From assembly GCA_904420575.1 (NCBI GenBank), contig CAJFVW010000162.1, positions 1 to 35,290 on the forward strand: a stretch of 35,290 nt of DNA, given 5' to 3'. The notes under the pieces are model-generated. The model made no database searches. It was not told the origin of the DNA and saw only the letters and a program-made list of their open reading frames with translations. Positions 13,287-32,918 of the stretch are shown in pieces (position 1 is the first letter of the stretch; every line of letters starts with the position of its first letter). The translations under genes and the position numbers were made by a program. This DNA comes from an uncultured Gordonibacter sp. (GTDB lineage Bacteria; Actinomycetota; Coriobacteriia; Coriobacteriales; Eggerthellaceae).

Positions 13287-14132
13287 TTACACGGCCAGCA
13301 GGTCGACTTCCCGCATGTAGGCTTCCAGGTCCTCTTCCCACGTGGGCATCTCGACGCCCACCATTTCCAGCATCAGACTTTCAAGGACCACGTTTTCGGC
13401 TGTTTTCGGGTCGGTCTTCGGCACCAGCACCGTGCCCGGATCGTAGCCGGCCAGCTCCAGGATCTTCGCCGCGAAGTCGTAGCGGCTTGCCCGCCCCTTG
13501 CTCACGATGTGGAAGGTGCCCGTGGCTTTCTGCTCGAGGGCCTTGATCATGAACTCGACGTAGGTGGCCATGCTGGTGGGGGCCGCGAACTGATCCACGC
13601 GCGCCTCGTACTTCTTGCCGGCGATGGCGGCGTCCAGGATGTCCTTGAACCGCCCACTGTAGGCATGGTACAGCCACGACGAGCGGATGATGATGTGGTC
13701 GGGAGTGGTGTTGCGCACCATCATCTCGCCGGCACGCTTCGACTTGCCATAGGGCGTGTCGGGGTGGGGGTTGTCGAACTCGTTCACCGGCTCGTCGAGC
13801 CGCGACGAGTACACGTCGTCCGAAGACACCTGCACCACGGTCGCTCCCACGGTGTTGGCCACCAACGCCACGTTGCGCGCGCCGAGCGCATTGACCTCGT
13901 ACGCCTTCACGCGGTTGCTCAGCCCGGTGGCGTCGCGCCGGATGCCCGCGCAGTTGATGATGATGCCCGGCTGCACCTCTTCGGCGAACGCCTCCAGGCG
14001 CTCGGGCTCGCACACGCTCAATTCTTCGTCGGTCCCTATCACGGTGAAGCCCGCCTTGGTCATCCGATGGCTGATCACGCTGCCGACGAAGCCTTGGTCG
14101 CCCGTCACCCACACGATGCTGTTGTCGCTCAT
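13287..14132 (-). CDS. RmlD-like NAD(P)-dependent sugar-nucleotide reductase (SDR)
   Basis: 281 residues, cytoplasmic. Extended short-chain dehydrogenase with nucleotide motif TGDQGFVGS (residues 10-18), NCAGIRRD near 60, VSSDDVYS near 102 and catalytic Y-G-K-S-K near 127. It is closest in layout to dTDP-4-dehydrorhamnose reductase (RmlD), but no other rhamnose gene is nearby. The gene follows the TRAP permease gene by only 27 nt on the same strand, so it is probably co-transcribed. GAGG lies about 8 nt before the ATG. The coupling to an organic-acid transporter is unusual; it might act on the imported compound or be a chance neighbour. Substrate not predictable from sequence. Confidence 0.82.
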   Translation of the reverse strand: MSDNSIVWVTGDQGFVGSVISHRMTKAGFTVIGTDEELSVCEPERLEAFAEEVQPGIIINCAGIRRDATGLSNRVKAYEVNALGARNVALVANTVGATVVQVSSDDVYSSRLDEPVNEFDNPHPDTPYGKSKRAGEMMVRNTTPDHIIIRSSWLYHAYSGRFKDILDAAIAGKKYEARVDQFAAPTSMATYVEFMIKALEQKATGTFHIVSKGRASRYDFAAKILELAGYDPGTVLVPKTDPKTAENVVLESLMLEMVGVEMPTWEEDLEAYMREVDLLAV

Positions 14133-14159
14133 GTCGAAACCTCGCTTTCCGCGTCGGGC

Positions 14160-16283
14160 CTATGCCGTGGCTTCTGCCGGGATGGACGGCACGTCGGTGC
14201 TGTCGTCCGCGTCATCGTCGCTGTCGCTCTTGTGCTTGCGCGCAAGCATCATCTGGAATCCGCACAGGCCGACGATGACCATCAGGCCTGCGATGTCGGT
14301 GGCCGTGCCGGGTATCATCATGCACAGGCCGCCCGCCGCGAATGCCAGGCGCACCAGGGGGTTCAGGTGATAGCCGAACAGCATGCTGGTCAAAGCGCAC
14401 TGCAGGCCGAACACGCCCACCAGGGCGGTGCCGGTGTTGAGTATGACGGTGAACGCCGTCACGTCGTCTCCCAAGAGCAGCAGCACCGGGCTGAACGCGA
14501 AGATGTAGGGCACCACGAACTTGGCGATGCCCAGTTTGGTGGCGTTGACGGCTGTTGCCATGGGTCGCGACTTGGCGATGGCGCTTGCGGCATAGGCGGC
14601 CAGCGCCACCGGCGGAGTGATGTCCGCGGCGATGCCGAAGTAGAACACGAAGAAGTGAGCGCAGATGGGGTCGATGCCCAACTGGATGAGGATGGGCGCG
14701 CAGGTGGACGCCATGATGCAGTAGTTGGCGGTGGTGGGCACGCCCATGCCCAGGATGAGACAGCAGATCATGGTGAACACCAGACCCACGATGACGAAGT
14801 CGCCCGCCATGAGCACGATCACGTTGATGATGGTGGAGGCAAGCCCCGTCACCGTGATGCAGCCGGCGATCATGCCTGCCATGGCGCATGCAACGGCCAC
14901 GGGGATGACGTTCTTGGTGCCGGCGGCGAACGCGTCCACGGTGGTGAAGAGGGCGATCTTGCCGGTTTGCGCCAACACGGCCAAAAAGCCCTCGCCTTCG
15001 GCGCGTTCGCGCCAGTTGTTCATCAGGAAGTTGACGAAGCCGATGAGGAAGGCGCCGAAGATGGAGATGGCGGCGCTGACGGCCATGGTGCGGGTGCCCG
15101 AGGCCACCAACCATACCAGCAGCACCAGCGGCAGGATGAGGTAGCAGTTCTTGGCCAGGTAGCTCCAGGAGGGAAGCTCGCTCTTCGGCACGCCCTTCAG
15201 ATCCAGCTTCTTGGCTTCCAAGTGCACCGCGATGAAGATGCCGGCGAAGTACAGAAGCGCGGGGATGAGGGCCTTCGTGGCCACTTCCAGGTAGGGGATG
15301 TCCATGTATTCGGCCATGAGGAACGCTGCTGCGCCCATGATGGGCGGCATGATCTGGCCGCCGGAGGACGAGGCCGCTTCCACGGCGCCGGCGAATTCGG
15401 GCTTGTAGCCGGTCTTCTTCATCATGGGGATGGTCACCGATCCGGTGGTCACGGTGTTGCCGACCGAGGAGCCGGACACCATGCCGCACAGCGCCGACGC
15501 GATGACCGACACCTTGGCTGCGCCGCCGCTCGACCAGCCGGCAATGCGGTTGGCCAGCGAGATGAAGAAGTTGGAGATGCCCGTGCGTTCCAGGAACGCG
15601 CCGAAGATGATGAACAGCACGATGTAGGTGTAGCACACGTTCACGGGAGTCCCGATGACGCCCGAGGTGGTGTAGAACAGCTTCTGCACGATCTTGCGCA
15701 GCGCAGCGAACGGGTCGGCACTGCTCGACGACGTGATCTGCCAATAGAACGCATAGCCTGCCAGGCACAGCACCACAATGATGATGGGCAGGCCCACGCA
15801 TCTGCGGCACAGCTCCACCAGGACCAGGATCCCCACCACGCCCAGCACCACGTGCAACGGCTCGATGCGGGCACCCATCAGCAGGATGTCGGTGCAGTTC
15901 GTGGCGAAGAACATGAACGATCCGAAGCCCAGCGCCGCAAGCACGATGTCATACCAGGGAATATGGTTGACCTTGTGGTTGGTCTTGCGGGCGGGGTACA
16001 TCATGAAGCCGATGACGACCACGAACGCAAGGAAACGCGCGAGGCGCGCTTCTGCCTGCTCCGTCGAGAGCAAGGTCATGAGCAGGCAGTATACCGAAAA
16101 TGCCACCATGAAGGTGGTCACGATGATCTTGGGTACCCCTTCCCAGATGCGCGTGTTCGACTCCTTGTCGTACTTGCGCATGACCTCTTCGGCATCGATC
16201 TCTTCCATGACGGCGCCATTGGCGTCCTGTTGTGGTGCTGCCTGGGTCTGGTCGGCGTTCTTCTTTCTCTTGAGAAGTGCCAT
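14160..16283 (-). CDS. TRAP transporter fused permease (TAXI type)
   Basis: 707 residues and strongly hydrophobic. An N-terminal cytoplasmic stretch of ~60 charged residues is followed by a small (DctQ-like) membrane unit and then a large DctM-like unit, fused in one chain as is typical for TAXI-family TRAP systems. Recognisable DctM features are SSGGQIMPPIMGAAAFLMAE and GMGVPTTANYCIMA. It imports a small carboxylate-like solute with a Na+ or H+ gradient, using the binding protein encoded upstream. Start ATG 16283 has AAGGGGG about 5 nt upstream; the open frame extends 81 nt further, but without a ribosome site. The gene lies 203 nt downstream of the binding-protein gene with a hairpin between them, and 27 nt before the SDR gene. 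Confidence 0.92.
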   Translation of the reverse strand: MALLKRKKNADQTQAAPQQDANGAVMEEIDAEEVMRKYDKESNTRIWEGVPKIIVTTFMVAFSVYCLLMTLLSTEQAEARLARFLAFVVVIGFMMYPARKTNHKVNHIPWYDIVLAALGFGSFMFFATNCTDILLMGARIEPLHVVLGVVGILVLVELCRRCVGLPIIIVVLCLAGYAFYWQITSSSSADPFAALRKIVQKLFYTTSGVIGTPVNVCYTYIVLFIIFGAFLERTGISNFFISLANRIAGWSSGGAAKVSVIASALCGMVSGSSVGNTVTTGSVTIPMMKKTGYKPEFAGAVEAASSSGGQIMPPIMGAAAFLMAEYMDIPYLEVATKALIPALLYFAGIFIAVHLEAKKLDLKGVPKSELPSWSYLAKNCYLILPLVLLVWLVASGTRTMAVSAAISIFGAFLIGFVNFLMNNWRERAEGEGFLAVLAQTGKIALFTTVDAFAAGTKNVIPVAVACAMAGMIAGCITVTGLASTIINVIVLMAGDFVIVGLVFTMICCLILGMGVPTTANYCIMASTCAPILIQLGIDPICAHFFVFYFGIAADITPPVALAAYAASAIAKSRPMATAVNATKLGIAKFVVPYIFAFSPVLLLLGDDVTAFTVILNTGTALVGVFGLQCALTSMLFGYHLNPLVRLAFAAGGLCMMIPGTATDIAGLMVIVGLCGFQMMLARKHKSDSDDDADDSTDVPSIPAEATA

Positions 16284-16404
16284 GCACGCCCCCTTTTCTC
16301 GCATCGGTGGACACGGCAGGCATGAGATCCGCAGGTGACTTCGTATGTGCCGGATGGGTGCCAAAAGGCTCCAGGCGAAAGCACTTGCGGACCTAAGCCT
16401 AAAA

Positions 16405-16437
16405 CGGCTGCGACGGGAAACGTGCCCGTCGCAGCCG
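16405..16437 (-). terminator. Hairpin between TAXI binding-protein and permease genes
   Basis: Perfect 13-bp arms CGGCTGCGACGGG (16405-16417) and CCCGTCGCAGCCG (16425-16437), 7-nt loop. On the minus strand TTTTAGG follows, so it looks like an intrinsic terminator. Partial read-through would give more binding protein than permease, which is common in such operons. Confidence 0.75.
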
Positions 16438-16486
16438 CGTCGTCAATCTTCAGGCTGGGAGCCCGAACGAGAGCATCGGGTTTTCG

Positions 16487-17494
16487 CTACTTGCTCGCGA
16501 CGGTGATGCCCTGCTCTTCGAAGTACTTCGCGGCGCCGGGATGATAGGGCACGGAGGTGACGGAAGCAGCTTCCTCCATGTCCAGCTCGTTGTACTTGGC
16601 ATGGGCGCTCGCGTTGTTCTCGGCACCGTCGAAGAGGGATTTCGTCAGGTTGTAGATGGCCTCTTCGGAGACGGAGTCGTTGGCGATGACGACGGCGCCC
16701 ACCGAAACGGTGAGCACGTCGGCGTCAAGGCCGTACGTGTCGGCAGCGATGGTGGCTGCGGCATAGTAGGGAGAAGCCTTCAGCAGCTTGTCTACGTGGG
16801 CCTGGTCCATGGAAACCAGGTAGGCGGTCTTGGTGGTGGACAGGTCGGTGATGGCCGTGGTGGGGGCGCCGGCCACGATGAAGGCCGTGTCGATCTTCTC
16901 GTCCTTCAGGGAGTCGGCGGAATCGCCGAACGACTGGTACACCGGCGTGATGTCCTCAAGCGTCATGTCGTAGGCGGCCAGCACGTCGATGGCGTTGAAG
17001 TACACGCCCGAACCCGCAGCGCCCACCGAAACGGTCTTCCCCTTGAGGTCGGCGACCGACTTGATGTCGGGATTGCAGGTCACGATCTGCACCTGCTCCT
17101 GATACAGGCTGGCCACCACGGAGAAGTCCTTGTAAGCGCCGTCCTCTTCGAACAGGTTCGTACCTTCGTAAGCGTAGGCCAGCACGTCGGACTGGCAGAA
17201 CGCCACGTCGGCGTCGTCGTCCTGCAGGGCCTGCACGTTGGCCTGGCTTCCGTTGCCGGAAAGCGCCGTGACGCCAAGGCCGTAATCGCCGTTGGTGGCG
17301 TACTGGGCCAGCACGTTGCCGTAGGCGTAGTAGGTGCCGGACTCGCCGCCCGTCACGAAGCGCAGGTTGGCGGTGTCGCCGGAAGCGTTGCCCTTGTTGC
17401 CTTCGTCATTGCCGCCGGAAGAACATCCGGCAAGCCCCATGGCCAGCACGCCGACCACGGCGACGGCCAAGAGTGCCTGAATCTTTTTCTTCAT
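16487..17494 (-). CDS. TAXI-family TRAP solute-binding lipoprotein
   Basis: 335 residues. The Sec lipoprotein signal is MKKKIQALLAVAVVGVLA with lipobox LAGC (C24), followed by a Gly/Asn/Ser linker. The mature part starts with the TAXI hallmark RFVTGGESGTYYAYG and includes QSDVLAYAYEG and LKGKTVSVGAAGSGVYFNA. It captures a carboxylate-type substrate outside the cell and hands it to the permease encoded downstream. ATG 17494 is set by AAGGGA 8-9 nt upstream; the extra frame up to 17632 lies over promoter elements. It is divergent from the LysR gene at 17851, which probably controls it. The ligand is unknown; members bind glutamate or other organic acids. Confidence 0.93.
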   Translation of the reverse strand: MKKKIQALLAVAVVGVLAMGLAGCSSGGNDEGNKGNASGDTANLRFVTGGESGTYYAYGNVLAQYATNGDYGLGVTALSGNGSQANVQALQDDDADVAFCQSDVLAYAYEGTNLFEEDGAYKDFSVVASLYQEQVQIVTCNPDIKSVADLKGKTVSVGAAGSGVYFNAIDVLAAYDMTLEDITPVYQSFGDSADSLKDEKIDTAFIVAGAPTTAITDLSTTKTAYLVSMDQAHVDKLLKASPYYAAATIAADTYGLDADVLTVSVGAVVIANDSVSEEAIYNLTKSLFDGAENNASAHAKYNELDMEEAASVTSVPYHPGAAKYFEEQGITVASK

Positions 17495-22931: not shown

Positions 22932-23239
22932 AAAAGGCCTTCCTTTGCCCCTCTGCGCCTTTCCGGTGAGAGGCCATTGGCGCAAACAAAAGACGGCGAA
23001 TGCGCGGCGGAGGCGGTTTCGGCCGTTTCCGCCGCTTTGCCTATTCGTGCGCATGCCGGCAACGATGCCGTCTCGGATCTCCGGCATGTGCCCGAGCGTT
23101 GCGCTTCGAGGCGGCCGCCTGCCGAAGGGGGCGGCCCCGTGGACGGCGGAATGTTGCCTCGGTCGCGGGCCGCGATTCCCGAAGGGATTCCGTGGTATCA
23201 TACGTTCGCACGATACTTTGGAAGGTGGGAGTTGCGCGG
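22932..23239. other. Intergenic region upstream of the GntR gene; no gene seen
   Basis: 308 nt. A hairpin with 8-bp arms GCGGCGGA (23004-23011) and TCCGCCGC (23028-23035), followed by TTTGCC, may end the flavoprotein transcript. At 23051-23064 a 14-nt piece repeats half of the 28-bp palindrome at 17525. ATGCCG/CGGCAT arms lie at 23065-23087. The GntR operator candidate is at 23195-23216. Confidence 0.5.
23195..23216. promoter_or_regulatory. Candidate GntR operator
   Basis: GTATC (23195-23199) and GATAC (23212-23216) are inverted, and the left side reads GTATCATA. The same octamer starts the inverted repeat at 24874. It lies 24-45 nt upstream of the GntR start, which suits autoregulation. Confidence 0.5.
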
Positions 23240-23620
23240 GTGTTCGACGATCTGCACATAAACGAGAAGTCCGGCGTGCCTGTATGGGTGCAGATACGCA
23301 ACCATCTATTGTTCCTCATCAAATCGGAGCGTATAAAACCGGGCGACGTGTTGCCCACGGTGCGCGAACTTGCCGCTCGTCTCGGCGTCAACTACAACAC
23401 CGTGCACAAGGTGTATCAAGACTTGGAGGCCGACGGCCTCATCTGCTCCAGCCGAGGAAAGCGATCGTTCGTGGCCGATGTCGACAGCAAGAAACTGGAA
23501 CTCCCCGAATCACCGGTTGATCTGGTCATCGAGGAATTGGTTCGGGTGGCGCAAGAGGCCAGCATCGCGCCGCAGGACGTGCTTCTGCGTGTGGAAGCAC
23601 GCTTCGAGCAGATGGGATGA
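23240..23620 (+). CDS. Short GntR-family regulator (YtrA/YhcF type)
   Basis: 126 residues. Winged HTH at about residues 10-75 (VWVQIRNHLLFLIKSERIKP, then LPTVRELAARLGVNYNTVHK), followed by only ~45 residues, which matches the short YtrA subfamily rather than GntR proteins with large effector domains. The GTG start at 23240 has GGGAG about 8 nt upstream; in-frame sequence before it is non-homologous. The SPFH gene follows after 108 nt. An inverted repeat in its own promoter shares GTATCATA with the promoter of the heme/molybdopterin-fold operon at 25014, so this protein may control both. YtrA-type repressors often respond to envelope stress or ligands in Gram-positive bacteria. Confidence 0.88.
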   Translation: MFDDLHINEKSGVPVWVQIRNHLLFLIKSERIKPGDVLPTVRELAARLGVNYNTVHKVYQDLEADGLICSSRGKRSFVADVDSKKLELPESPVDLVIEELVRVAQEASIAPQDVLLRVEARFEQMG

Positions 23621-23728: not shown

Positions 23729-24658
23729 ATGGGCAAGGACAAGGGCAAATCCGAAGATGAAAAACTGAACGAAGAGCCGGAGATCACCGAGATCGATGAA
23801 GTCTTCGAAGATGCGGCGACCAGCCGTTTCGGCGCCGGGTTTCTGCGCTGGATCATCACGTTTGCGGTGGCGGCTGCATTCGCGGCCATTGCCTTCCTTA
23901 CGCAGCAGCCTGCATGGGGCATCGTAGGCGTGCTGGGCGCTGCCGTCCTCTTCAGCTGCATGCACGTGGTGCTCGAGTGGGAACGCACCGTGGTGCTGCG
24001 CTTCGGCAAGTTCAACCGCGTGGCAGGTCCCGGCCTCATCTTCATGATTCCTTTCGTGGAATATTCTGCAGCCACGGTTGACCTGCGCATGCGTTCCACC
24101 GCATTCAAGGCCGAGCACGTGCTCACAAGCGACCTGGTGCCTGTGGACGTAGATGCCGTGCTCTTCTGGATGGTATGGGACGCGGGCAAGGCGTGTTCGG
24201 AGATTCGCAACTACGAGCGCCTGGTGTACTGGGTGGCTCAGACCACGCTGCGCGACGTGATGGGCGGCGTCGGCATTGCCCAGATGGGCGTGAGGCGCAC
24301 GCAGATCGACAAAGAAGTGGCGAGCATTCTGGAACGCAAGACCAGCGAATGGGGCATTACCATCGTGTCGGTGGAAATACGCGACATAGAGATCCCCGCC
24401 GACCTGCAGGAAGCCCTTTCCGCCGAAGCGCGTGCCGAACGCGAGTACAATGCCCGCATCATTCTCGCCGAGGTGGAGAAGGAAGTCTCGGAAATGTTCG
24501 TGGATGCCGCACGCACGTACAAGAAGGAAGACGCCGCATTGCAGTTGCGAGCCATGAGCTTCGTGGCAGACAGCGTGAAGGAGAAGGGCGGTCTGGTAGT
24601 GGTTCCCAGCGCGCTGTCAGAAGCCTTCGAGGGATTGGAAAAGATCGCGAAAGGGTAG
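23729..24658 (+). CDS. SPFH/band-7 (slipin-like) membrane protein
   Basis: 309 residues. An acidic N-terminal stretch (~1-35) is followed by two hydrophobic segments (~40-58 and ~64-80) and the SPFH core beginning ERTVVLRFGKFNRVAGPGLI. Next come RTQIDKEVASILERKTSEWG and VSVEIRDIEIPADLQEALSA, typical of bacterial slipins, then a C-terminal helical region. Slipins form membrane-bound oligomers and organise membrane domains; they are often found with NfeD proteases, but no nfeD gene is seen here. GGAGAGG lies just before ATG 23729. It follows the GntR gene and may share its transcript. Confidence 0.92.
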   Translation: MGKDKGKSEDEKLNEEPEITEIDEVFEDAATSRFGAGFLRWIITFAVAAAFAAIAFLTQQPAWGIVGVLGAAVLFSCMHVVLEWERTVVLRFGKFNRVAGPGLIFMIPFVEYSAATVDLRMRSTAFKAEHVLTSDLVPVDVDAVLFWMVWDAGKACSEIRNYERLVYWVAQTTLRDVMGGVGIAQMGVRRTQIDKEVASILERKTSEWGITIVSVEIRDIEIPADLQEALSAEARAEREYNARIILAEVEKEVSEMFVDAARTYKKEDAALQLRAMSFVADSVKEKGGLVVVPSALSEAFEGLEKIAKG

Positions 24659-25013: not shown

Positions 25014-26606
25014 ATGGGATTCGCTAAGAACCGCAAAATGGTGATTTCCGTCGTGACGGTAGCGCTGGCCGCCGCCGCCCTGGCGGGCTGCGCGCAGAAC
25101 GCGGTGACGGAGGAGCCCGCAGATGAGAGCACCGTCGGCCAGGCTACGGTGAACTACCAATCGGAAGGACGCTACAAGGACAATGTGGCGGCGTTCCCCG
25201 ATGGCATTGACGCTGACCTGGGGACGAAGAACGCCGAGATCAACGCGCCTTTCAGCTACGTTGACCGCAACGGCTTCACCGTGCAGCCGGTGCCGAGCGA
25301 CGACATCGGGTGGAACATCAGCTACCTGAACGCCGACCAGCGCGGATGCACGTCGTGCCATACGTTGGAAGACGCGTTGATGATGCTGGACACGTACCAC
25401 GGCACCATCTTCATGGGATATCCCACCGAGCAGACGCTGTCCACGTGCGTGGCCTGCCACATTTGGGCGAACCCGCTGCGCGATTCCATCCACGCAACGC
25501 ATCTGGGCAACGAGCTGTTCGAGAACAAGAACGGCACTTGCGAGTCGTGCCACTACATCGACGAGAACGGCGACTTCAAGCGCTGGGATTACGAGAAGTA
25601 CAATCTGTACCAGGGCATCACCGATGTCGCGGCGAGCGATGCCGATCTGAGCGTGACCTACGATCAGGAAACGCTTACCTCGAACGACGACTTCTTCTAC
25701 AAGAGCATCAAGGAGTACGGCGACTTCGACGCGAGCGACTGGCGTACCGACGACAGCAACATGGATCCCGAACTGTACAACAACTGGGTGTTCTCCGTTG
25801 GCGGTGCCGTGGAGAATCCCCTCGAGATGACGCTGCCCGAACTGGTTGAAAAGTTCGGCACCGTGACCACCGTCATGAAGCAGCAGTGCACCATCAACGG
25901 AGCGGGCAATGCGGCCATCGCGCAGGTTGAGGTCACCGGCGTTCCCATGCAGGCGATCATCGACTACGTGAAGCCGCAAGGCGACGTGAACGCCGTGGAA
26001 TTCATGACCGAGGATCCGTATCCCAATGTGGGCAAAACGTACAACATCCCCTTCACGGCCATGACCGAGAACGATTCCCTCCTGGTCATCGAAATGAACG
26101 GCGAGACGCTGCCCAACACGCAGGGCTACCCGTGCTCGGTATGGACGGCGGGCGGTTCCGCTGCCGGCGGCATCTTCAAGGTGTGCACGGGCGTGAACTT
26201 CAACGTGGTGGACGAAGCCGACGCCGCTTCTGGCTATTTCATGGGAGGCTTCGAAGACGCGGGCCTTGATGGCGCGCCGGCCGACAAGCCCAACAGCGCC
26301 GTGCTGAACTACCCCTCTGGCGTGGTGCTTGAAGGCGTGGCTGGCACGGAAGTGCAGATCGAAGGCTTTGCCGACGCGTTCGACGAGCCTATCCAGAAGA
26401 TCGAATTCTCCTGGGATCACGGTCAGACGTGGACCACGCTGGAAACGCCGGACAACGACCCGCAGTACTGGACGTACTGGCGCATGGGCTTCACGCCTCC
26501 TTCGGAGGGCGCATACCTGCTTGACATTCGCACGACCAGCTTGCAGGCCGATGGCACGGAGCGCGTCAACGGCGTCAACACCCAGTTCCTGCTGAACGTG
26601 AAATAG
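25014..26606 (+). CDS. Triheme c-type lipoprotein with sulfite-oxidase-type molybdopterin fold
   Basis: 530 residues. A Sec lipoprotein signal ends in LAGC (C26). Three heme c motifs follow: CTSCH (112-116), CVACH (145-149), CESCH (176-180). From ~250 to 410 comes a domain resembling the SUOX Moco-binding domain (WVFSVGGAVENPLEMTLPEL, then a possible Mo-ligand Cys292 before NGAGN). From ~430 to 530 comes a Mo-co dimerisation-type Ig-like domain (IEFSWDHGQTWTTLETPDND, ending LLNVK). It would pass electrons between hemes and the C-terminal module outside the cell. ATG 25014 has AAAGGAG about 4-5 nt upstream. Oddity: Moco proteins are normally exported by Tat, but no twin Arg is present, so Moco binding is uncertain. 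It heads a gene set with the 26621, 27804 and 28537 genes. Confidence 0.87.
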   Translation: MGFAKNRKMVISVVTVALAAAALAGCAQNAVTEEPADESTVGQATVNYQSEGRYKDNVAAFPDGIDADLGTKNAEINAPFSYVDRNGFTVQPVPSDDIGWNISYLNADQRGCTSCHTLEDALMMLDTYHGTIFMGYPTEQTLSTCVACHIWANPLRDSIHATHLGNELFENKNGTCESCHYIDENGDFKRWDYEKYNLYQGITDVAASDADLSVTYDQETLTSNDDFFYKSIKEYGDFDASDWRTDDSNMDPELYNNWVFSVGGAVENPLEMTLPELVEKFGTVTTVMKQQCTINGAGNAAIAQVEVTGVPMQAIIDYVKPQGDVNAVEFMTEDPYPNVGKTYNIPFTAMTENDSLLVIEMNGETLPNTQGYPCSVWTAGGSAAGGIFKVCTGVNFNVVDEADAASGYFMGGFEDAGLDGAPADKPNSAVLNYPSGVVLEGVAGTEVQIEGFADAFDEPIQKIEFSWDHGQTWTTLETPDNDPQYWTYWRMGFTPPSEGAYLLDIRTTSLQADGTERVNGVNTQFLLNVK

Positions 26607-26620
26607 CGGAGGTGACATTC

Positions 26621-27412
26621 ATGGCTGACAAAAAACAACTTGCCGTAAGCGCAGTGGCTGCTACCTCTCTGTTGCTGGCCGGCGCGACCCCTGCCTTGGC
26701 GGCGACGAGCGAGTCTTCGGATGCTGCGCAGCTTGCAACCGAGAGCGCAGTGCAGTCGAACCAGAGCGCGGGCGCCTTCGTGAAGGCCGATGCGTCGGAG
26801 GGCCAATTCGCCTGGGATCAAACCACGATCACGCCGAACTCGGTCATCAAGGAAGTGTTCCGAGCGGCTACGAGCGCGCTATGCAACGCGACGAACGATC
26901 TGGCGGTCGACAACCCCTTGCAGTGGCGTCTGGCGGTTTCGGGAGACGTGGACAACGCCTTCACGGCGACGGTCGACGAACTGTCTCAGGAACAGGCCGT
27001 GCAGCAGACGATGACGTGCTCCTGTGGCGGCAACCCCTCTGACGGCAAGGCCATCATCACGGCCGAGGTCAAGGGCATTCCGGTGAACTATCTGGCAGGG
27101 CGAGCAGGTGCGCACAGCGACGCCAACACCATCACGTTCGTTTCGTCCGACGGCACGGAAGTGGCCATGCCGCTGGCCTATGTCATTGGCCATCACGGCG
27201 TGATTTCCTTCGAGATAAACGGAGAGGACCTGTCGGCGTCGGTCGGCGGCAACAACCAGCTGTGGCTGGCTGGTGCTCCGGCGAACTACTTCGTGCGCGA
27301 TATCGCCGAGATTCGCATCACTGCAGAAGACGTGGTTCCGGCGAACCCCGGCGAGGGCATGGAATATCCCAACAGTCCCAATGTCGGCTTGCTTTCGGCG
27401 GAGGCCGAGTAG
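26621..27412 (+). CDS. Secreted single-domain protein with sulfite-oxidase-type molybdopterin fold
   Basis: 263 residues. The Sec signal reads LAVSAVAATSLLLAGATPALA, with likely cleavage after A-L-A near residue 28 and no lipobox. The mature part is an Ala/Ser-rich stretch followed from ~100 by a SUOX-like domain: QWRLAVSGDVDNAFTATVDE, T-C-S-C-G-G-N (C133, C135), then NNQLWLAGAPANYFVRDIAE. C135-G-G-N resembles the C-A-G-N motif of the Mo-binding Cys. Unlike the upstream protein it has no hemes and lacks the C-terminal dimerisation domain; that domain may be supplied by the 27436 gene. GGAGG lies 8 nt before ATG 26621; a GTG at 26612 overlaps that site and is less likely. It is 14 nt after the preceding stop, so same operon. 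Probably an extracellular partner; catalysis unproven. Confidence 0.75.
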   Translation: MADKKQLAVSAVAATSLLLAGATPALAATSESSDAAQLATESAVQSNQSAGAFVKADASEGQFAWDQTTITPNSVIKEVFRAATSALCNATNDLAVDNPLQWRLAVSGDVDNAFTATVDELSQEQAVQQTMTCSCGGNPSDGKAIITAEVKGIPVNYLAGRAGAHSDANTITFVSSDGTEVAMPLAYVIGHHGVISFEINGEDLSASVGGNNQLWLAGAPANYFVRDIAEIRITAEDVVPANPGEGMEYPNSPNVGLLSAEAE

Positions 27413-27424
27413 GGCGGAACGTGT

Positions 27425-27468
27425 GCGGCCGTCGATCAGGCTTCCACGTGAAGTTCGGCGACGGCCGC
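27425..27468. terminator. Hairpin at the convergent junction
   Basis: Perfect 10-bp arms GCGGCCGTCG (27425-27434) and CGACGGCCGC (27459-27468) with a 24-nt loop, overlapping the 3' end of the minus-strand gene. It may end plus-strand transcription after the 26621 gene; no T tract. Confidence 0.4.
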
Positions 27469-27717
27469 AAGGGGGCTCGTCCGGCCGTCTTCCGTGACCG
27501 ACCGCACTTTCAGCTGGTAGATGCCTTCCTGCTGAGGTGTGTAGGCATAGGTCCAGTGGACCATGAGGTCGGGATCGGAGGCGCTCACGTCCTGGCGAGC
27601 CCAGGTGGTTCCGCCGTCAAGAGAGAACTCGAGGGCGACGATGTGGCTGCCGTAGTCGTCAGCGTATCCCTCGAAGGTTACCGGCTGGCCGACCTTTCCT
27701 TGGACAGGGGCGATCAT
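27436..27717 (-). CDS. Stand-alone Mo-co dimerisation-type (Ig-like) domain protein
   Basis: 93 residues, no signal peptide visible. The whole protein matches the C-terminal domain of the 25014 protein: VGQPVTFEGYADDYGSHIVA, then LEFSLDGGTTWARQDV, then GIYQLKVRSVTEDGRTSPL. This is the Ig-like dimerisation domain of sulfite oxidase family enzymes. ATG 27717 has AAAGGAG 5 nt upstream, an excellent site, which supports it being real despite its small size. It is convergent with the 26621 gene (23 nt between stops) and divergent from the ferredoxin gene (86 nt). The lack of a signal is puzzling if it pairs with a secreted partner; it could act in the cytoplasm or be a rearranged fragment. Confidence 0.75.
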   Translation of the reverse strand: MIAPVQGKVGQPVTFEGYADDYGSHIVALEFSLDGGTTWARQDVSASDPDLMVHWTYAYTPQQEGIYQLKVRSVTEDGRTSPLAAVAELHVEA

Positions 27718-27754
27718 AAGGGCTCCTTTCAGAGGTTGGCAGGGGAAGTTCGAT

Positions 27755-27781
27755 GAGCGGTTGCTGCACAGTATACCGCTC
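27755..27781. promoter_or_regulatory. Inverted repeat between divergent genes
   Basis: GAGCGGT (27755-27761) and ACCGCTC (27775-27781), 13-nt spacer, in the 86-nt gap between the small minus-strand gene and the ferredoxin gene. Operator candidate only. Confidence 0.35.
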
Positions 27782-27803
27782 TGGGCAAAGGATTGGAGAG
27801 AAC

Positions 27804-28481
27804 ATGCGAGACGATACGGGCATCCCACGGCGCACTCTGCTGCAAGGGGCTGCCGTGTTGGGCGCGACGGCGCTCGCTGGAGGTGCGGTTGGCGCCACGC
27901 GCAAGGCCGCCTTCGCCGAAGACGGCAAAGCGGGCGCGGCGCCGCAGGATGCAGAGGCCGCAACCTCGCAGGGCGGCATGCAGTACGGGTTTCTGGTGCG
28001 CATGTCGAACTGCGTGAACTGCCAGCAATGCGTCGAGGCCTGCCGCAAGGCGAACGGCACGCCGGAGGACGTGCCTGCCCGCCGTGCAGTGACGCCGTAC
28101 ACGACGGCGAATGGCCAGAAGGTGTACGTTTCCACCTCGTGCATGCACTGCGAGGATCCCGCCTGCGCGACGGTGTGCCCTGCACGGGCCATCACGAAAG
28201 GCGAAGGCGGCGTGGTGACGGTGGACCACGACCGGTGCATCGGCTGCAAGTACTGCTATCAGGCATGTCCGTTCGGCGTGCCGCACTACACGTCTGCCGG
28301 CATGGACAAATGCGACCTGTGCCTCGAGGCTGGCGTTGCTCTGGGGGAGGCGCCCAACTGCGTGCAGGCGTGCAAGTTCCGTGCGCTGCACTTCGGCACG
28401 ATCGACGAGTTGGTAGCAGGGTCGGGCGGACGTGCCAAGAAGATAGAAGCATCGACCGGCCCCTCGTATGTGCTGCTATAG
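27804..28481 (+). CDS. Tat-exported four-cluster [4Fe-4S] ferredoxin (DmsB/NrfC type)
   Basis: 225 residues. A twin-arginine signal PRRTLLQGAAVLGATALAGG (R9-R10) places it outside the membrane. Sixteen cysteines form four [4Fe-4S] sites: 70/73/76/80, 113/116/121/125, 145/148/151/155 and 170/173/186/190, the full pattern of the electron-transfer subunits of NrfC, PhsB and DmsB type. It should shuttle electrons between the NrfD-like anchor encoded next (28537) and the heme/molybdopterin-fold proteins encoded upstream. GGAGAG lies about 3-4 nt before ATG 27804; the frame reaches 27753, but a signal peptide fits the later start. The extracytoplasmic location suits a respiratory chain that feeds or drains menaquinone. 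Confidence 0.92.
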   Translation: MRDDTGIPRRTLLQGAAVLGATALAGGAVGATRKAAFAEDGKAGAAPQDAEAATSQGGMQYGFLVRMSNCVNCQQCVEACRKANGTPEDVPARRAVTPYTTANGQKVYVSTSCMHCEDPACATVCPARAITKGEGGVVTVDHDRCIGCKYCYQACPFGVPHYTSAGMDKCDLCLEAGVALGEAPNCVQACKFRALHFGTIDELVAGSGGRAKKIEASTGPSYVLL

Positions 28482-28536
28482 GCGGGCGCGGATTGTGAAC
28501 GACTATGTGCCTGCAAGTCAGGTAAGGAGGTAATCG

Positions 28537-29508
28537 ATGGCCGAATTGCAATCGGTATGGGGTTGGCAACCGGCCCTGTACTTGTTCTTGGGAGGCATGG
28601 GCGCTGGCGCCTTCGTCGTGGCTGCGCTCTTGTACTTCCTCGACAGGCAAAGCAATCGCAAGACCATCTGCATCGCTTCATGGGCTGCAACGGCCTGCCT
28701 CGTCGCGGGCCTGCTTCTGCTGCTGTCCGAGCTGACGAACCCGTTGCGCGGCATGCTATTGTGGCAAAGCTTCAGCAACGGGACGTCGTGGATGACGTTC
28801 GGTGCGTGGGTGGTGTTCGCGGCGGTGATCGTGTTCGGCCTCATGGCCGTGCTGTCGACCGAGCAGTGGGTGAAGCCCGTTTCCAAGAAATGGAAGGGCT
28901 ATCCCAAGGCGAGGAATCGCATGCGCAGCGTGCTTGCCGTCGTGGGTATCGCCCTGGGCTTGTGCGTGGCCGTGTACACCGGCATTCTGCTCATGTCCGT
29001 TCCGGGCGTGCCGCTGTGGAACACGCTGCTTTTGCCCTGCCTGTTCACCGTTTCTGCACTGGACACGGGTGCAGCGTTGGTGGAGATCGTGGCGGTGGCG
29101 CCCAAGCGGGCGGTGCTTTCCAACAAGACGCATCGTCTGCTTGAAGCTTCGGTAATGGTTCTGGTGGTGCTGGAAGTGGTCGTGCTCGCCGCGTTTCTGG
29201 CGACCATGCAGGGGAGCGACCTGACCACGGCAACGGGTGCAACGGCGGCAGCTTCGGCTCGGCTGCTGGCCCAAGGCATGCTCGCGCCGTTCTTCTGGCT
29301 TCTGGTGGGGGCATGCGGCCTGGCGCTTCCTTTGGCCATGGCCATTGCAGGCATGGTGCTGCGCAAAAGGAGGAAAAGCGGGCGTACGGCCATGCTTGTG
29401 GGGGCGGCTGGCGCGCTGGTGGGAGGATGCGCCCTGCGTTTCCTCGTGCTCATGGCTGGTTTGCACGCCGATGTGGTGGCCCAGGCGGTTTCAAAGATAG
29501 TGTCTTAG
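28537..29508 (+). CDS. NrfD/PsrC-like membrane anchor (quinone-interacting)
   Basis: 323 residues with about eight hydrophobic segments. The N-terminus W-G-W-Q-P-A-L-Y-L-F-L-G-G-M-G-A-G-A-F is typical of NrfD/PsrC proteins, which exchange electrons between membrane menaquinone and a ferredoxin subunit. A conserved E/N region (LLSELTNPLRGMLLWQSFSN) near residue 65 is close to the quinone site in relatives. GGAGGT lies 7 nt before ATG 28537, and the gene starts 55 nt after the ferredoxin stop, so they form one operon. A strong terminator follows. The direction of electron flow cannot be told from sequence. Confidence 0.9.
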   Translation: MAELQSVWGWQPALYLFLGGMGAGAFVVAALLYFLDRQSNRKTICIASWAATACLVAGLLLLLSELTNPLRGMLLWQSFSNGTSWMTFGAWVVFAAVIVFGLMAVLSTEQWVKPVSKKWKGYPKARNRMRSVLAVVGIALGLCVAVYTGILLMSVPGVPLWNTLLLPCLFTVSALDTGAALVEIVAVAPKRAVLSNKTHRLLEASVMVLVVLEVVVLAAFLATMQGSDLTTATGATAAASARLLAQGMLAPFFWLLVGACGLALPLAMAIAGMVLRKRRKSGRTAMLVGAAGALVGGCALRFLVLMAGLHADVVAQAVSKIVS

Positions 29509-29682: not shown

Positions 29683-30213
29683 ATGGAGGGACCTGCAACG
29701 TCTCGAAGGACGTTTCTGAAGGCGAGCGCGGCCTGTGGCATAGGAGCGCTGGGAGCCGGGTTCTTGGCGGGCTGCGGGGGCGGCGGGCAGCAGGCCGACT
29801 CCGGCGGTGCGACGGGCGCGGCCATGCTGGAGGACATCGCGTGGGACGGTGCGTTCGACGTGGTGGTCGTGGGGTTGGGGGCGGCGGGCGCATCGGCGGC
29901 CATCGCAGCGGCCGAAAGCGGCGCGAGCGTGCTTGTTGTCGACAAGGCCCCCGAAGGCAGCGAAGGTGGCAACAGCCGCTACAGCTCGCAGCTGTTCGCG
30001 TCTGCCACCAACAAGGACGAGGCACTTGCCTACGTAGGTGCGCTTGCGGGAGGCTACTACGTGCCCGCCGACGTGCTGGACGCCTACGCACAGGGTCTGT
30101 GCGACGTGCGTGACACGTTGGTGGCCTGGGGCTTGGACGAAGGCGAACTGTTGGACGTCACCGACGTGACCGAGGCCGACATAGACGCGCTGTCCGCGCA
30201 GGGAGGTGAGTAG
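29683..30213 (+). CDS. N-terminal part of a split Tat-exported flavoprotein reductase
   Basis: 176 residues. Tat signal SRRTFLKASAACGIGALG (R8-R9), lipobox LAGC (C31), then the FAD Rossmann segment FDVVVVGLGAAGASAAIAAA and the flavin-proximal E-G-G-N-S-R-Y-S-S-Q. It ends after DVTEADIDALSAQGGE, where family members normally continue into the middle of the FAD domain. The stop TAG (30211-30213) is followed one base later by the ATG of the next gene, which carries the rest of the flavoprotein. No start site could join the two frames: the downstream gene is in another frame. Either the two chains assemble into one enzyme or the gene is broken. Its own ribosome site (GGAGG about 7 nt before ATG 29683) looks functional. 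Confidence 0.82.
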   Translation: MEGPATSRRTFLKASAACGIGALGAGFLAGCGGGGQQADSGGATGAAMLEDIAWDGAFDVVVVGLGAAGASAAIAAAESGASVLVVDKAPEGSEGGNSRYSSQLFASATNKDEALAYVGALAGGYYVPADVLDAYAQGLCDVRDTLVAWGLDEGELLDVTDVTEADIDALSAQGGE

Positions 30214-30214
30214 C

Positions 30215-31858
30215 ATGTGCTTCAGGCCTTCCAATTCGGAAGCGAAGAGCGTGGTCGTATGTCCTAGCTGTGGCAAGACGACGCCTCTCGATTCCGAAAG
30301 ATGCGAGAAATGCGGCGCCAGCCTGGATGGGTCGGATGCTCCCGCCATCGCGCCGCCCCAAGCGCCCGCCATCGCGCCGTCCGCCATTCCGGGGCGTTAC
30401 AACCTGCCGCCGCTTTCCGTGTCGCATCCGGAACTGCCAGGCGCTTCCTCCATCCGCACGAACCTGGTGGGTTCGTCCATCAACGACGGGGCCTTGTGGC
30501 GCTTCCTGAAGAAGGGCGTGGTGGCGCGCAAGAGCCAGATAGACTGCTGGTACTCGTCGCCGGTGACGGCGCTCATCCAGGACCCCGTGACGAAGGCGGT
30601 CGTGGGCGTGGAGATCGAGCGCAACGGACAGAAGCTCAACATTGCCGCACGCAACGGCGTGGTGCTGGCGCTGGGTGGCTACGAGAACGATCCGAATGCG
30701 GCGCAACAGTTCCTCGACCAGCCGAAAACCCTTGTCACCGGCACACTGTACAACGAAGGCGACGGCATGCGCATGGCCCAGGCAGCCGGTGCGCGCCTGT
30801 GGCACACGAACGCATGGGAGAGCGGCGGCGTGGGCCTGGTTCCCGAGGCGGACCGCATGCGCAGTCTGGGAGCCGACATCGCGTTCTTCAGGGCAGGATC
30901 GGTGGTGCTGGTGGGCGGCGACGCGCGGCGCTACCTTGCAGAAGACGCCGAGCAGCGGGGCGGTCGGGTGAAGGTGGGCGGTTCGTGGGTGGTGCCCGCC
31001 CGCCCCGATGCGAACTTCTTCGTGTTCGACGAGGCCCAGCGTGCCGATATGGAAAACGGCGTGGCGCCGCGCCCCTTTCCCAACTGGAGCGTGGACCTGT
31101 CTGCGGAAGTGGAATCCGGCAAGGTGGCGCGTGCCGACGACGTGCCCGGCCTGGCTGCTGTGCTGGGGTTGGACGGAGAGGCCCTGCAGGCCACCATCGA
31201 CGCGTACAACGCCGCCGCTGCCTCCGGCTTCGACGCGCTGGGCCGCCAATCACAGAACATGCGCGCCTTCGGCAACGGCCCCTACTACGGCGTAGCCGTG
31301 TATCCGGCGGTGCTCGCCACGCAGGGTGGTCCGGAGCGAGCGGCGAATGCCCAGGTGATGGGCGCTTCTGGCGAACCCATCCCGCACTTGTACGCGGCGG
31401 GCGAATGTGGCAGCGTGACGGCGCGCAATGCGCAAAGCGGCGGGAACCTGGCGGAATGCATCGTGTTCGGAAAGATTGCCGGGGAGGAAGCGGCAACGGC
31501 GAAAGACGATGCGGTGGCGCTGCCCGAGGGCCTGACGCACGGGCCGGGCTCGGGCGACGTTTCCGTATACGACGAGGCTCCCGACGAGTCGGGCCTTTCA
31601 TCGGGGGAGGCCGTAGGCGTTGGGGAAGGTTTGGGCGGCCCCCTCTGGGTGAAGGTCGCCGCCACAGGCGGCGCGATAGACGCGGTGGAGGTCCTGCGCC
31701 ACACCGAGCATGCCGAAGTGGGCGCCCCTGCGCTGGACGAGCTGAGGGCGCGCATGGTCCAGGCTGGCACGCCGGACGTGGACGCGGTGGCCGGTGCCAC
31801 GGTCACCAGCATGGGCTTGAAGGAAGCCGTGCGCAACGCGCTGGGACATGGCGCGTAA
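30215..31858 (+). CDS. Zinc ribbon fused to the C-terminal part of a flavoprotein reductase, with FMN-binding domain
   Basis: 547 residues. Residues 1-34 form a zinc ribbon beginning M-C-F-R-P, with C16-P-S-C19 and C30-E-K-C33. Residues 35-60 are an Ala/Pro linker with the repeat APAIAPPQ/APAIAPSA. From ~61 (YNLPPLSVSHPELPGASS) the flavoprotein resumes where the 29683 product stops, through A-T-Q-G-G-P-E-R and Y-A-A-G-E-C-G-S-V-T. After residue ~430 comes an FMN-binding domain ending A-V-A-G-A-T-V-T-S, close to the covalent FMN motif (usual Ser before GAT replaced by Ala). GGGAGG lies 8 nt before ATG 30215. No signal peptide of its own, so it cannot be exported alone; it might ride with the N-terminal chain. 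Whether active or decaying is unclear. Confidence 0.82.
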   Translation: MCFRPSNSEAKSVVVCPSCGKTTPLDSERCEKCGASLDGSDAPAIAPPQAPAIAPSAIPGRYNLPPLSVSHPELPGASSIRTNLVGSSINDGALWRFLKKGVVARKSQIDCWYSSPVTALIQDPVTKAVVGVEIERNGQKLNIAARNGVVLALGGYENDPNAAQQFLDQPKTLVTGTLYNEGDGMRMAQAAGARLWHTNAWESGGVGLVPEADRMRSLGADIAFFRAGSVVLVGGDARRYLAEDAEQRGGRVKVGGSWVVPARPDANFFVFDEAQRADMENGVAPRPFPNWSVDLSAEVESGKVARADDVPGLAAVLGLDGEALQATIDAYNAAAASGFDALGRQSQNMRAFGNGPYYGVAVYPAVLATQGGPERAANAQVMGASGEPIPHLYAAGECGSVTARNAQSGGNLAECIVFGKIAGEEAATAKDDAVALPEGLTHGPGSGDVSVYDEAPDESGLSSGEAVGVGEGLGGPLWVKVAATGGAIDAVEVLRHTEHAEVGAPALDELRARMVQAGTPDVDAVAGATVTSMGLKEAVRNALGHGA

Positions 31859-31955
31859 GGGATTCGGCCACCGCTTGCGAGGCTCGGTGCGGGATGGCCT
31901 TGCGTGGTGGCGGGCGCGCGATAAGGGCGGCGCAAGCCGCGAAAGGGGAAGCGTG

Positions 31956-32918
31956 ATGGAATGCATGAAGGCTGCCGCAGACGGAGGTAGCAGCGACAGC
32001 GGCGCAGACACGTTCGGCGCGGGCGCGGGTTTCCCGCTTGCCGGAGACGATCCATGCGATGCGGGCGTGGACCTGCAGGCCTCGCGTGCGGAAGGTCGCG
32101 CTGGTCACGGCGATCTCATGGGACGGCGCCAGTTCGTCGCGGGTGCAGCGCTTGCGGGTTTCGCTGTGGCGGGAAGCCTGGTCGCAACGGGGTGTTCTGC
32201 AGGGAAGGACGCCCAGCAAGCGTCTTCCGACCAACAACCCATCGACGGGGAGGGCGGCCCGGCCGCAGAGGGAGGCGCGGGAGGCGCAGGGGCGCCTGCC
32301 GTGCCTGGCGACGCTTCAGGCCACAAACCCCTTCCCGCGCCCGAGGCCGACCCGGAAAGCCCCTTCGGCGTGGACGCGAACGTCAACGTGGGCACCATCG
32401 ACCAGTGGCTTGGCCGCGAAGACGTGGCCTACCGCGACATGCGCCTGTTCTTCGACCCTGCCGACTACGCCTCCATCGGCGGTGACCCCAACCTGACGGC
32501 CACCGTGGAGGGCTTCAAGGTGGTGCCGTTTCCCTATTTGGCCACCCTGCCGCCCCTTCCCGTGGCGAACGCCTACGATGGGCAGACGGCATGGACGGTG
32601 GAATGGGCGGACGACGGCTCCATCGTGTCGGCCACGCCGAACTTCCGCGAGTCGGGGCCGCTTCTGGACGAGCTTTTCCCCAAGGACAAGGCCATCTTCC
32701 TGATGTGCGGGGCGGGCGGCTACGCGGGGCAGGCGAAGACGCTGCTCGTGCATTTGGGCTGGAATGCCGACAAGCTGTACAACATCGGCGGCTTCTGGAA
32801 CTACACGGGCGACCGCGCCGTGCAGCTCATTACCACGGACGCTTCAGGCCAGCCTCTCCATTGCATGTGGCGTGCCGACACGGCCCCTCTCGACTTCGCC
32901 TGGATGCACGCGCGCTGA
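31956..32918 (+). CDS. Tat-exported rhodanese-like lipoprotein
   Basis: 320 residues from this start. A Tat signal MGRRQFVAGAALAGFAVAGS with Cys in A-T-G-C lies ~57 residues in, which is an unusually long n-region. A later ATG at 32118 would give a normal signal but has no ribosome site, while ATG 31956 has AAAGGGGA 6 nt upstream. After a Gly/Pro/Ala-rich linker comes a rhodanese-type domain (~135-320) with C-G-A-G-G-Y-A-G as active-site loop and I-G-G-F-W-N-Y after it. Such proteins move sulfur or bind related ligands outside the cell. It follows the split flavoprotein by 97 nt and ends one base from the convergent LuxR gene. An ATG at 31848 overlapping the previous gene is less likely. Confidence 0.75.
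   Translation: MECMKAAADGGSSDSGADTFGAGAGFPLAGDDPCDAGVDLQASRAEGRAGHGDLMGRRQFVAGAALAGFAVAGSLVATGCSAGKDAQQASSDQQPIDGEGGPAAEGGAGGAGAPAVPGDASGHKPLPAPEADPESPFGVDANVNVGTIDQWLGREDVAYRDMRLFFDPADYASIGGDPNLTATVEGFKVVPFPYLATLPPLPVANAYDGQTAWTVEWADDGSIVSATPNFRESGPLLDELFPKDKAIFLMCGAGGYAGQAKTLLVHLGWNADKLYNIGGFWNYTGDRAVQLITTDASGQPLHCMWRADTAPLDFAWMHAR

Follow-up and report, generated by a model that had tools for sequence, protein, structure and literature searches.

What takes the place of the catalytic subunit in a gene cluster that encodes the ferredoxin and membrane anchor of a respiratory molybdoenzyme and has no large molybdenum subunit? The cluster lies at 25014-29508 of a 35,290-nucleotide stretch (hereafter, the window), which is contig CAJFVW010000162.1, or C162 in our numbering, of an Eggerthellaceae genome from a gut bacterium (an uncultured Gordonibacter sp.; 2.96 Mb in 245 contigs, 86% complete). 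A preliminary description had named four genes there, i.e., those for a triheme lipoprotein with a sulfite oxidase (SUOX) domain, a second SUOX-domain protein, a four-cluster ferredoxin and an NrfD-type protein, and had seen no dimethyl sulfoxide (DMSO)-reductase-type large subunit. All four genes are present, and none of the 63 PF00384 matches in the genome falls on this contig; what the inventory overlooked was a fifth gene, D, within the cluster and the division of a downstream flavoprotein between two genes. The answer to which these genes lead is that the usual large molybdenum subunit has its place taken by heme-bearing SUOX relatives, one of which is divided between two genes. Gene calls and labels (P1, P2, P2D, P2n, P2cD, D, FLAV) come from our own scripts, and L- and C-numbers denote loci and contigs.

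25014..26606, + strand: P1, triheme lipoprotein with a SUOX domain and a C-terminal dimerization-like domain (Oxidored_molyb 3.7e-20, 72.6 bits)
25347..25553, + strand: P1 heme motifs CTSCH, CVACH and CESCH (three CxxCH sequence motifs)
25887..25889, + strand: P1 Cys292, aligned with the Mo-ligand cysteine of SorA (profile alignment)
26621..27412, + strand: P2, second SUOX-domain protein, with a Sec-like signal and without the dimerization domain (Oxidored_molyb 4.6e-16, 59.3 bits)
27017..27025, + strand: P2 CxC motif (Cys133, Cys135), Cys135 being aligned with the SorA cysteine
27436..27717, - strand: D, stand-alone SUOX C-terminal (dimerization) domain, 93 residues, without export signal (SorA model 300-377, 1.7e-7)
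27804..28481, + strand: F, Tat-exported ferredoxin with four [4Fe-4S] cluster motifs (Fer4_11 8e-18; 16 Cys; RRTLLQ; FdnB match 1.7e-22)
28537..29508, + strand: N, NrfD-type membrane protein with eight hydrophobic segments by hydropathy count (Pfam NrfD 1.7e-35)

Linkage of the ferredoxin and NrfD genes with SUOX genes

The check set beforehand in the preliminary description was linkage of the ferredoxin/NrfD pair with the SUOX genes in other genomes. We searched N in 138 Eggerthellaceae genomes, fetched all 61 hits of at least 170 bits and labelled their neighbors: 36 of these closest NrfD hits adjoin P1/P2, 12 adjoin DMSO-reductase-type genes (these also with a NarJ/TorD-type chaperone), 11 stand beside flavoprotein genes, and two were not assigned (L171, L220). 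The tally of labelled neighbors covers 65 N genes, including five weaker ones from the same loci, and at L172, which lies at a contig end, the absent P1/P2 may have been cut off. Because locus sets were picked by similarity, counts over fetched loci, here and below, are not population frequencies.

The SUOX-linked N genes come from 26 genomes and 12 genera (totals counted by hand), and 35 of the 36 share the strand of P1/P2; in L196 the P1, P2 and D genes face N. Gene orders vary (P1-P2-D-F-N, F-N-P1-P2-D, P1-P2D-F-N, with D in several places), and such variation with kept linkage is expected if the products work together. Because the set recurs in 36 loci, it is not a product of chance: A SUOX-type module joined to a DmsB/NrfC-type ferredoxin and NrfD without a DMSO-reductase-type subunit, as had been proposed from the window, is a conserved combination.

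The tree of 60 N proteins, built by a quick method and carrying a long-branch warning, points in the same direction. The SUOX label requires four changes on it against 17.8 in shuffles, with none of 500 shuffles as low, and the DMSO-reductase-linked proteins lie on one side of a branch, apart from those linked to SUOX and flavoprotein genes. A menaquinone link for the cluster would be consistent with the NrfD assignment; a phmmer comparison of N itself with the PDB gave no match at E<=0.1. In L167, L168, L169 and L170, close relatives of F-N are accompanied not by P1/P2 but by a flavoprotein together with a small multiheme cytochrome, so that the quinol module occurs there in a further arrangement.

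Of the 138 family genomes, 37 have P2 relatives, and often more than one copy. Across 396 genomes drawn from the class, hits at E <1e-60 were confined to Eggerthellaceae and three genomes from two further families of this order; in a draw of the same size from the phylum, heme-region matches were, among the matches listed, restricted to Eggerthellaceae, the others covering the SUOX part alone. All 33 loci in the named collection belong to Coriobacteriia (including Raoultibacter, Adlercreutzia, Eggerthella sinensis, Paraeggerthella, Slackia and Parvibacter). The culturable species Raoultibacter timonensis has the orthologous cluster at L095.

Two SUOX units, one in separate pieces

That P1 and P2 are SUOX-fold proteins follows from both profiles and structural models. 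Their Oxidored_molyb scores (72.6 and 59.3 bits) exceed the Pfam cut-off of 24. A profile of 25 P1 proteins finds SorA (2c9x) first, at 2e-29, and then SorT, SoxC, animal and plant sulfite oxidase and an MsrP/YedY-type protein; the P2 profile matches SorA at 1e-9. The predicted structure of P1 aligns with SoxC (Z 19.2, 300 residues, 4.1 Å) and that of P2 with SorA (Z 16.1, 170 residues, 3.0 Å), and both also resemble pterin-binding PruR proteins (Z about 11 to 14). Confidence in these models is moderate, the mean predicted local distance difference test (pLDDT) score being 72.9 for P1 and 67.8 for P2, with low-confidence loops just after the Mo-type cysteines (P1 293-298, P2 137-142). Models or trees for P1, P2 and N were built on 24, 28 and 60 sequences, respectively.

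Several residues that bear on the question of a cofactor are conserved. The cysteine aligned with what we take to be the Mo ligand of SorA (residue roles in SorA being our assumption, the aligned letters coming from the profile alignment) is present in all 79 P1 proteins of the fetched loci, as is a Lys or Arg at the 'VK' position, and 74 of the 79 have the Asn three positions after the cysteine. The P2 alignment retains CxC and the Asn in 28 of 28 rows, and the invariant residues of P2-D include CxC...N and QLW. From these residues a bound molybdenum cofactor is plausible, and P2-D appears to be a better candidate than P1 for the cofactor site.

The C-terminal dimerization domain is part of P1; for P2 it is supplied by a separate D or by a P2-D fusion. 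In the window, D lies between P2 and F on the opposite strand, its 93 codons preceded by an AAAGGAG ribosome site before the ATG, and it matches the C-terminal part of SorA alone (model positions 300-377, 1.7e-7). Its substitutions relative to three relatives are biased to the third codon position (against L056: 9, 8 and 48 at positions 1, 2 and 3). Together with the 52 D genes counted in the fetched loci, these features rule out a chance open reading frame.

Among 82 genes for P2, P2-D and N-terminal halves of P2, 20 are P2-D fusions, and because such fusions exist, P2 and D belong together; the two thus read as a second SUOX unit. Where they are separate, D lies within four genes of 47 of the 52 unfused P2 genes, and it takes the opposite strand solely in the window, L054, L055 and L056. 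Phase-variable, invertible DNA was rejected as the cause: There are no long flanking inverted repeats, and L054, L055 and L056 all have D in this same orientation. We therefore keep the opposite-strand D as an old inversion, not a switch.

A further 10 of the 82 genes are cut inside the SUOX domain, and nine separate genes carry the remaining SUOX domain plus D; this second gene of the split form has no export signal. The cut falls near residue 165 (L074, L075, L076, L077, L080, L081, L084, L091) and also occurs in two contigs of the source genome itself, C200 (L012) and C79 (L078). The pieces lie on opposite strands in L080, and in some loci just one of the two was seen.

A putative menaquinol-linked reductase and its rivals

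We assign a probability of about 0.55 to the explanation that the cluster encodes a menaquinol-linked extracytoplasmic reductase, in the form of one membrane complex with a SUOX pseudo-homodimer; its assembly, use of menaquinol, direction, cofactor and class of substrate are what we infer. P1, P2, D, F and N would form a complex on the outside of the cytoplasmic membrane, in which N would take electrons from menaquinol and F, by way of its four [4Fe-4S] clusters, would deliver them to P1 with its three c-type hemes. P1 and P2-plus-D would pair as the pseudo-homodimer, the pocket of which would reduce an acceptor that is probably organic; in the window cluster, electrons may also continue to the adjacent split flavoprotein. 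The many P1-P2-D modules, the LuxR regulator genes beside them and the 12 Oxidored_molyb matches in the source genome suggest substrate-specific reductases rather than a generic conduit. Genes for TatC and cytochrome c assembly are also present in the genome, as is a MoaE match.

Three groups of observations weigh against this explanation. The first is the composition of the module. F and N lie within four genes of 36 of the 79 P1 genes and are missing from the vicinity of the other 43, so that they are not obligatory, and the core unit is P1-P2-D. A LuxR regulator gene is near 31 of the 43 F/N-free P1 genes, and an SPFH gene is near 18 of the 36 F/N-linked ones. Three loci (L184, L190, L212) have two P1-P2D modules that face each other around one F-N pair, with a LuxR gene outside each.

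The second concerns the active site. The arginine of the SorA/SorT 'PxR' motif ('PLR' in SorA) is kept in just 11 of the 79 P1 proteins, all 11 in F/N-linked loci, and has been lost from the other 68; the window has Ser in P1 and Gln in P2, where Gln occupies the position in 28 of 28 rows. Because this arginine is so seldom kept, and is absent from the P1 of the window, sulfite is an unlikely substrate. The preliminary description had guessed at a sulfur oxyanion, for which a rhodanese-like gene downstream was the sole support. That gene exists, and the backing it was to give did not materialize, as members of its family were found in only six loci (six members, among the loci fetched by that stage). 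The NCBIfam equivalog models for sulfite and sulfane dehydrogenases also score far below cut-off (SorA 51 against 600 bits, SorT 36 against 570, SoxC 34 against 420), and with the 'PxR' arginine absent the sulfur-oxyanion proposal is not supported.

The third is export. Pterin enzymes normally fold before passing through the twin-arginine (Tat) route, and P1, as a c-heme protein, depends on Sec. A twin-arginine motif is seldom present in P1 (2/79), P2 (1/52) and P2-D (0/20); such motifs are common in F (38/68), FLAV-N (8/8), FLAV (26/33) and DMSO-reductase-type proteins (12/20), where the counts for F, FLAV and the DMSO-reductase type are lower bounds, some genes being truncated or starting late. 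P1 begins with a lipobox-type signal, and on the side of export this argues against a bound Mo-pterin cofactor in P1. As pattern counts, not signal-peptide predictions, an uncharged 12-residue stretch near the N-terminus occurs in 48 of 52 P2 proteins, 19 of 20 P2-D fusions and all 10 N-terminal pieces of the internally split form, in none of the 52 D proteins and in none of the nine C-terminal pieces. A hidden upstream signal of D is unlikely, given an in-frame stop within 15 codons upstream in 19 of 51 genes and within 30 in 28 of 51; most D genes begin at a common conserved MIxP-type stretch. Because D and the matching pieces of other split forms lack an export signal, how D meets P2 is a topology puzzle: Pieces that need joint folding apparently begin on separate sides of the membrane. 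A folded pair exported together would solve it, as would a cytoplasmic helper role of D.

The genes on either side of the cluster are as follows.

23240..23620, + strand: GntR-type regulator gene (gene call; an alternative upstream start is open at 23000)
23729..24658, + strand: SPFH/Band 7 membrane protein gene (Pfam Band_7 6.7e-36)
29683..30213, + strand: FLAV-N, N-terminal part of the split flavoprotein, with a Tat signal (FAD_binding_2 positions 1-100)
30215..31858, + strand: FLAV-C, remaining flavoprotein with zinc ribbon, FMN_bind and GATVTS motif, no export signal seen (FAD_binding_2 143-412; FMN_bind 1.8e-13)
31953..32918, + strand: RHO, rhodanese-like protein with a Tat/lipoprotein-like N-terminus (MCGAGGYAG loop; an alternative upstream start is open at 31848)

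GntR homologues adjoin SPFH and P1 genes in related clusters, and RHO has no Pfam or NCBIfam match. The two-gene flavoprotein occurs in the window, in L054, L055 and L056, and, with a different gene order, in L195; the recurrence of this two-gene form in the four other loci speaks against a frameshift or assembly error. (Our own gene calls start late for FLAV-N and FLAV-C of L055 and for FLAV-N of L195.) FLAV-C starts with MCFRP and a zinc ribbon (CPSC...CEKC; the ribbon is also present in L054, L056 and L195), which is odd in that the FMN_bind domain and the partner suggest an extracytoplasmic place. Among candidates for an electron acceptor further downstream in the window cluster, the split flavoprotein ranks first.

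This candidate acceptor is central to the main rival, which we nevertheless regard as unlikely, i.e., that the SUOX domains hold no cofactor and serve as scaffolds, the complex acting as a conduit from menaquinol to a separate acceptor (here the split flavoprotein), by analogy with QrcABCD and alternative complex III, in which hemes, a four-cluster ferredoxin and an NrfD protein accompany a molybdopterin-fold subunit that lacks a cofactor. The Sec-like signals on P1 and P2, the lost 'PxR' arginine and the low model confidence directly after the Mo-type cysteines would all fit this reading, flavoprotein halves adjoin the complex in five loci (L195 with its other gene order), and QrcB is described, in the passages that deal with it, as a relative of molybdopterin subunits without cofactors (PMC13059093, PMC6303296). 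However, the universal Mo-type cysteine of P1 and the Asn that nearly always follows it are hard to square with a dead scaffold; the split flavoprotein is missing from most P1-P2-D loci; and many paralogues with LuxR neighbors would be ill-suited to a generic conduit.

Somewhat more doubtful is the possibility that D is no part of the enzyme and acts as a cytoplasmic, chaperone-like helper that holds P2 before export, the other linked genes working as in the reductase explanation. The fixed start of D and the absence of an export signal from all 52 genes would be accounted for in this way. Yet the 20 natural fusions, 19 of them with an N-terminal hydrophobic stretch, place D on the same side as P2, and where the cut falls inside the SUOX domain, pieces of that domain itself are signal-less (0/9).

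That the SUOX site works as a dehydrogenase, oxidizing an extracytoplasmic substrate (e.g., a reduced sulfur compound) and sending electrons through the hemes, F and N to menaquinone, draws on the sulfite and sulfane dehydrogenases being the nearest solved relatives, on the nearby rhodanese-like gene and on the ability of NrfD/PsrC modules to reduce menaquinone, as stated for Qrc in the passages concerned (PMC13059093), but is improbable given the arginine lost from 68 of 79 P1 proteins and from P2, the low scores of the sulfite-dehydrogenase models and a family that, in the part of the source that treats it, lives by reducing organic acceptors (PMC13060105).

A possible hint to the substrate, and a weaker lead than the rhodanese-like gene, comes from other clusters. 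Eight P1-P2-F-N clusters (L055, L056, L180, L181, L183, L187, L192, L202) carry S-Me-THD-like (PF06032/PF20906) genes, hydantoinase A genes or both on the upstream side, an ABC transporter of the amino-acid type on the downstream side, or a combination of these, and in some a Y_phosphatase3 gene is present as well; Pfam assignments of these S-methyl-thiohydantoin-desulfurase-like, hydantoinase and transporter neighbors were made on representatives from L056 and L180 only. Because the window has no such genes, no substrate is assigned from them. Elsewhere in the window, 9793-11901 and 13287-17494 hold genes for an EAL/GGDEF protein, an RmlD-type reductase and a DctM-type TRAP transporter with an NMT1-like binding protein, and promoter and terminator scans gave results at chance level. 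One PF00384 match of the genome contains an in-frame TGA (C86:19196-20470) and is perhaps a selenocysteine enzyme.

Significance and comparison with known systems

Eggerthellaceae possess large families of respiratory reductases that transform drugs, hormones and dietary compounds. A recent study catalogued these reductases as flavin-dependent (COG1053) or of the DMSO-reductase type (COG0243) (PMC13060105), and the P1-P2-D modules look like a third family beyond that catalogue. If they are indeed reductases, orphan gut transformations gain further candidate enzymes. The literature that we searched contained no description of the P1-P2-D/F/N gene set.

The split and partly signal-less architecture also raises a specific, directly testable question about protein export. 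We tentatively suggest, as a conjecture more likely to fail than to hold, a class of respiratory molybdoenzymes made of split polypeptides: SUOX units would be cut at differing places (between domains or inside the pterin-binding domain) with one piece bearing the export signal, and would fold around the cofactor in the cell, be co-exported and dock on a SUOX subunit with three hemes and on the quinol module of ferredoxin and NrfD. If such a class exists, the fused c-heme/SUOX protein and its signal-less partner pieces would need a special route of export and maturation; we know of none for a SUOX-type enzyme family.

With the sulfite and sulfane dehydrogenases SorA(B), SorT and SoxCD, the system shares the SUOX fold, the Mo-type cysteine, the dimerization domain and work with c-type heme. 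It differs in that the hemes are fused into the SUOX polypeptide, the second unit is cut into P2 and D, the 'PxR' arginine is missing, a ferredoxin and NrfD are joined, and scores lie far below the family cut-offs. The complex iron-sulfur molybdoenzymes DmsABC, PsrABC and TtrABC have in common with it a four-cluster ferredoxin and an NrfD/PsrC-type anchor, an extracytoplasmic place and a quinone link; here, in contrast, neither a DMSO-reductase-type subunit nor a NarJ/TorD-type chaperone adjoins, and SUOX-fold proteins occupy the catalytic place.

QrcABCD and alternative complex III are similar in combining c-type hemes, a molybdopterin-fold subunit, a ferredoxin and NrfD, as given in the passages that treat them (PMC13059093, PMC6303296), the association here being a predicted one. 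In our case the fold is SUOX rather than DMSO reductase, the hemes are in the fold polypeptide and the Mo-type cysteine is kept. QrcD is described in the corresponding passage as a 10-helix NrfD-type subunit (PMC13059093); a hydropathy count of N gives eight segments. Also comparable is the 21-dehydroxylase cluster Elen_2451-2454 of Eggerthella lenta, a member of the same family, in which the partial account that we draw on places an SPFH protein with a molybdoenzyme and a ferredoxin. That account lists a molybdopterin oxidoreductase and FdhD, and names, as far as it extends, no SUOX genes and no P1-P2-D; the cluster is a precedent within this family for an SPFH gene adjoining a molybdoenzyme (PMC11835702).

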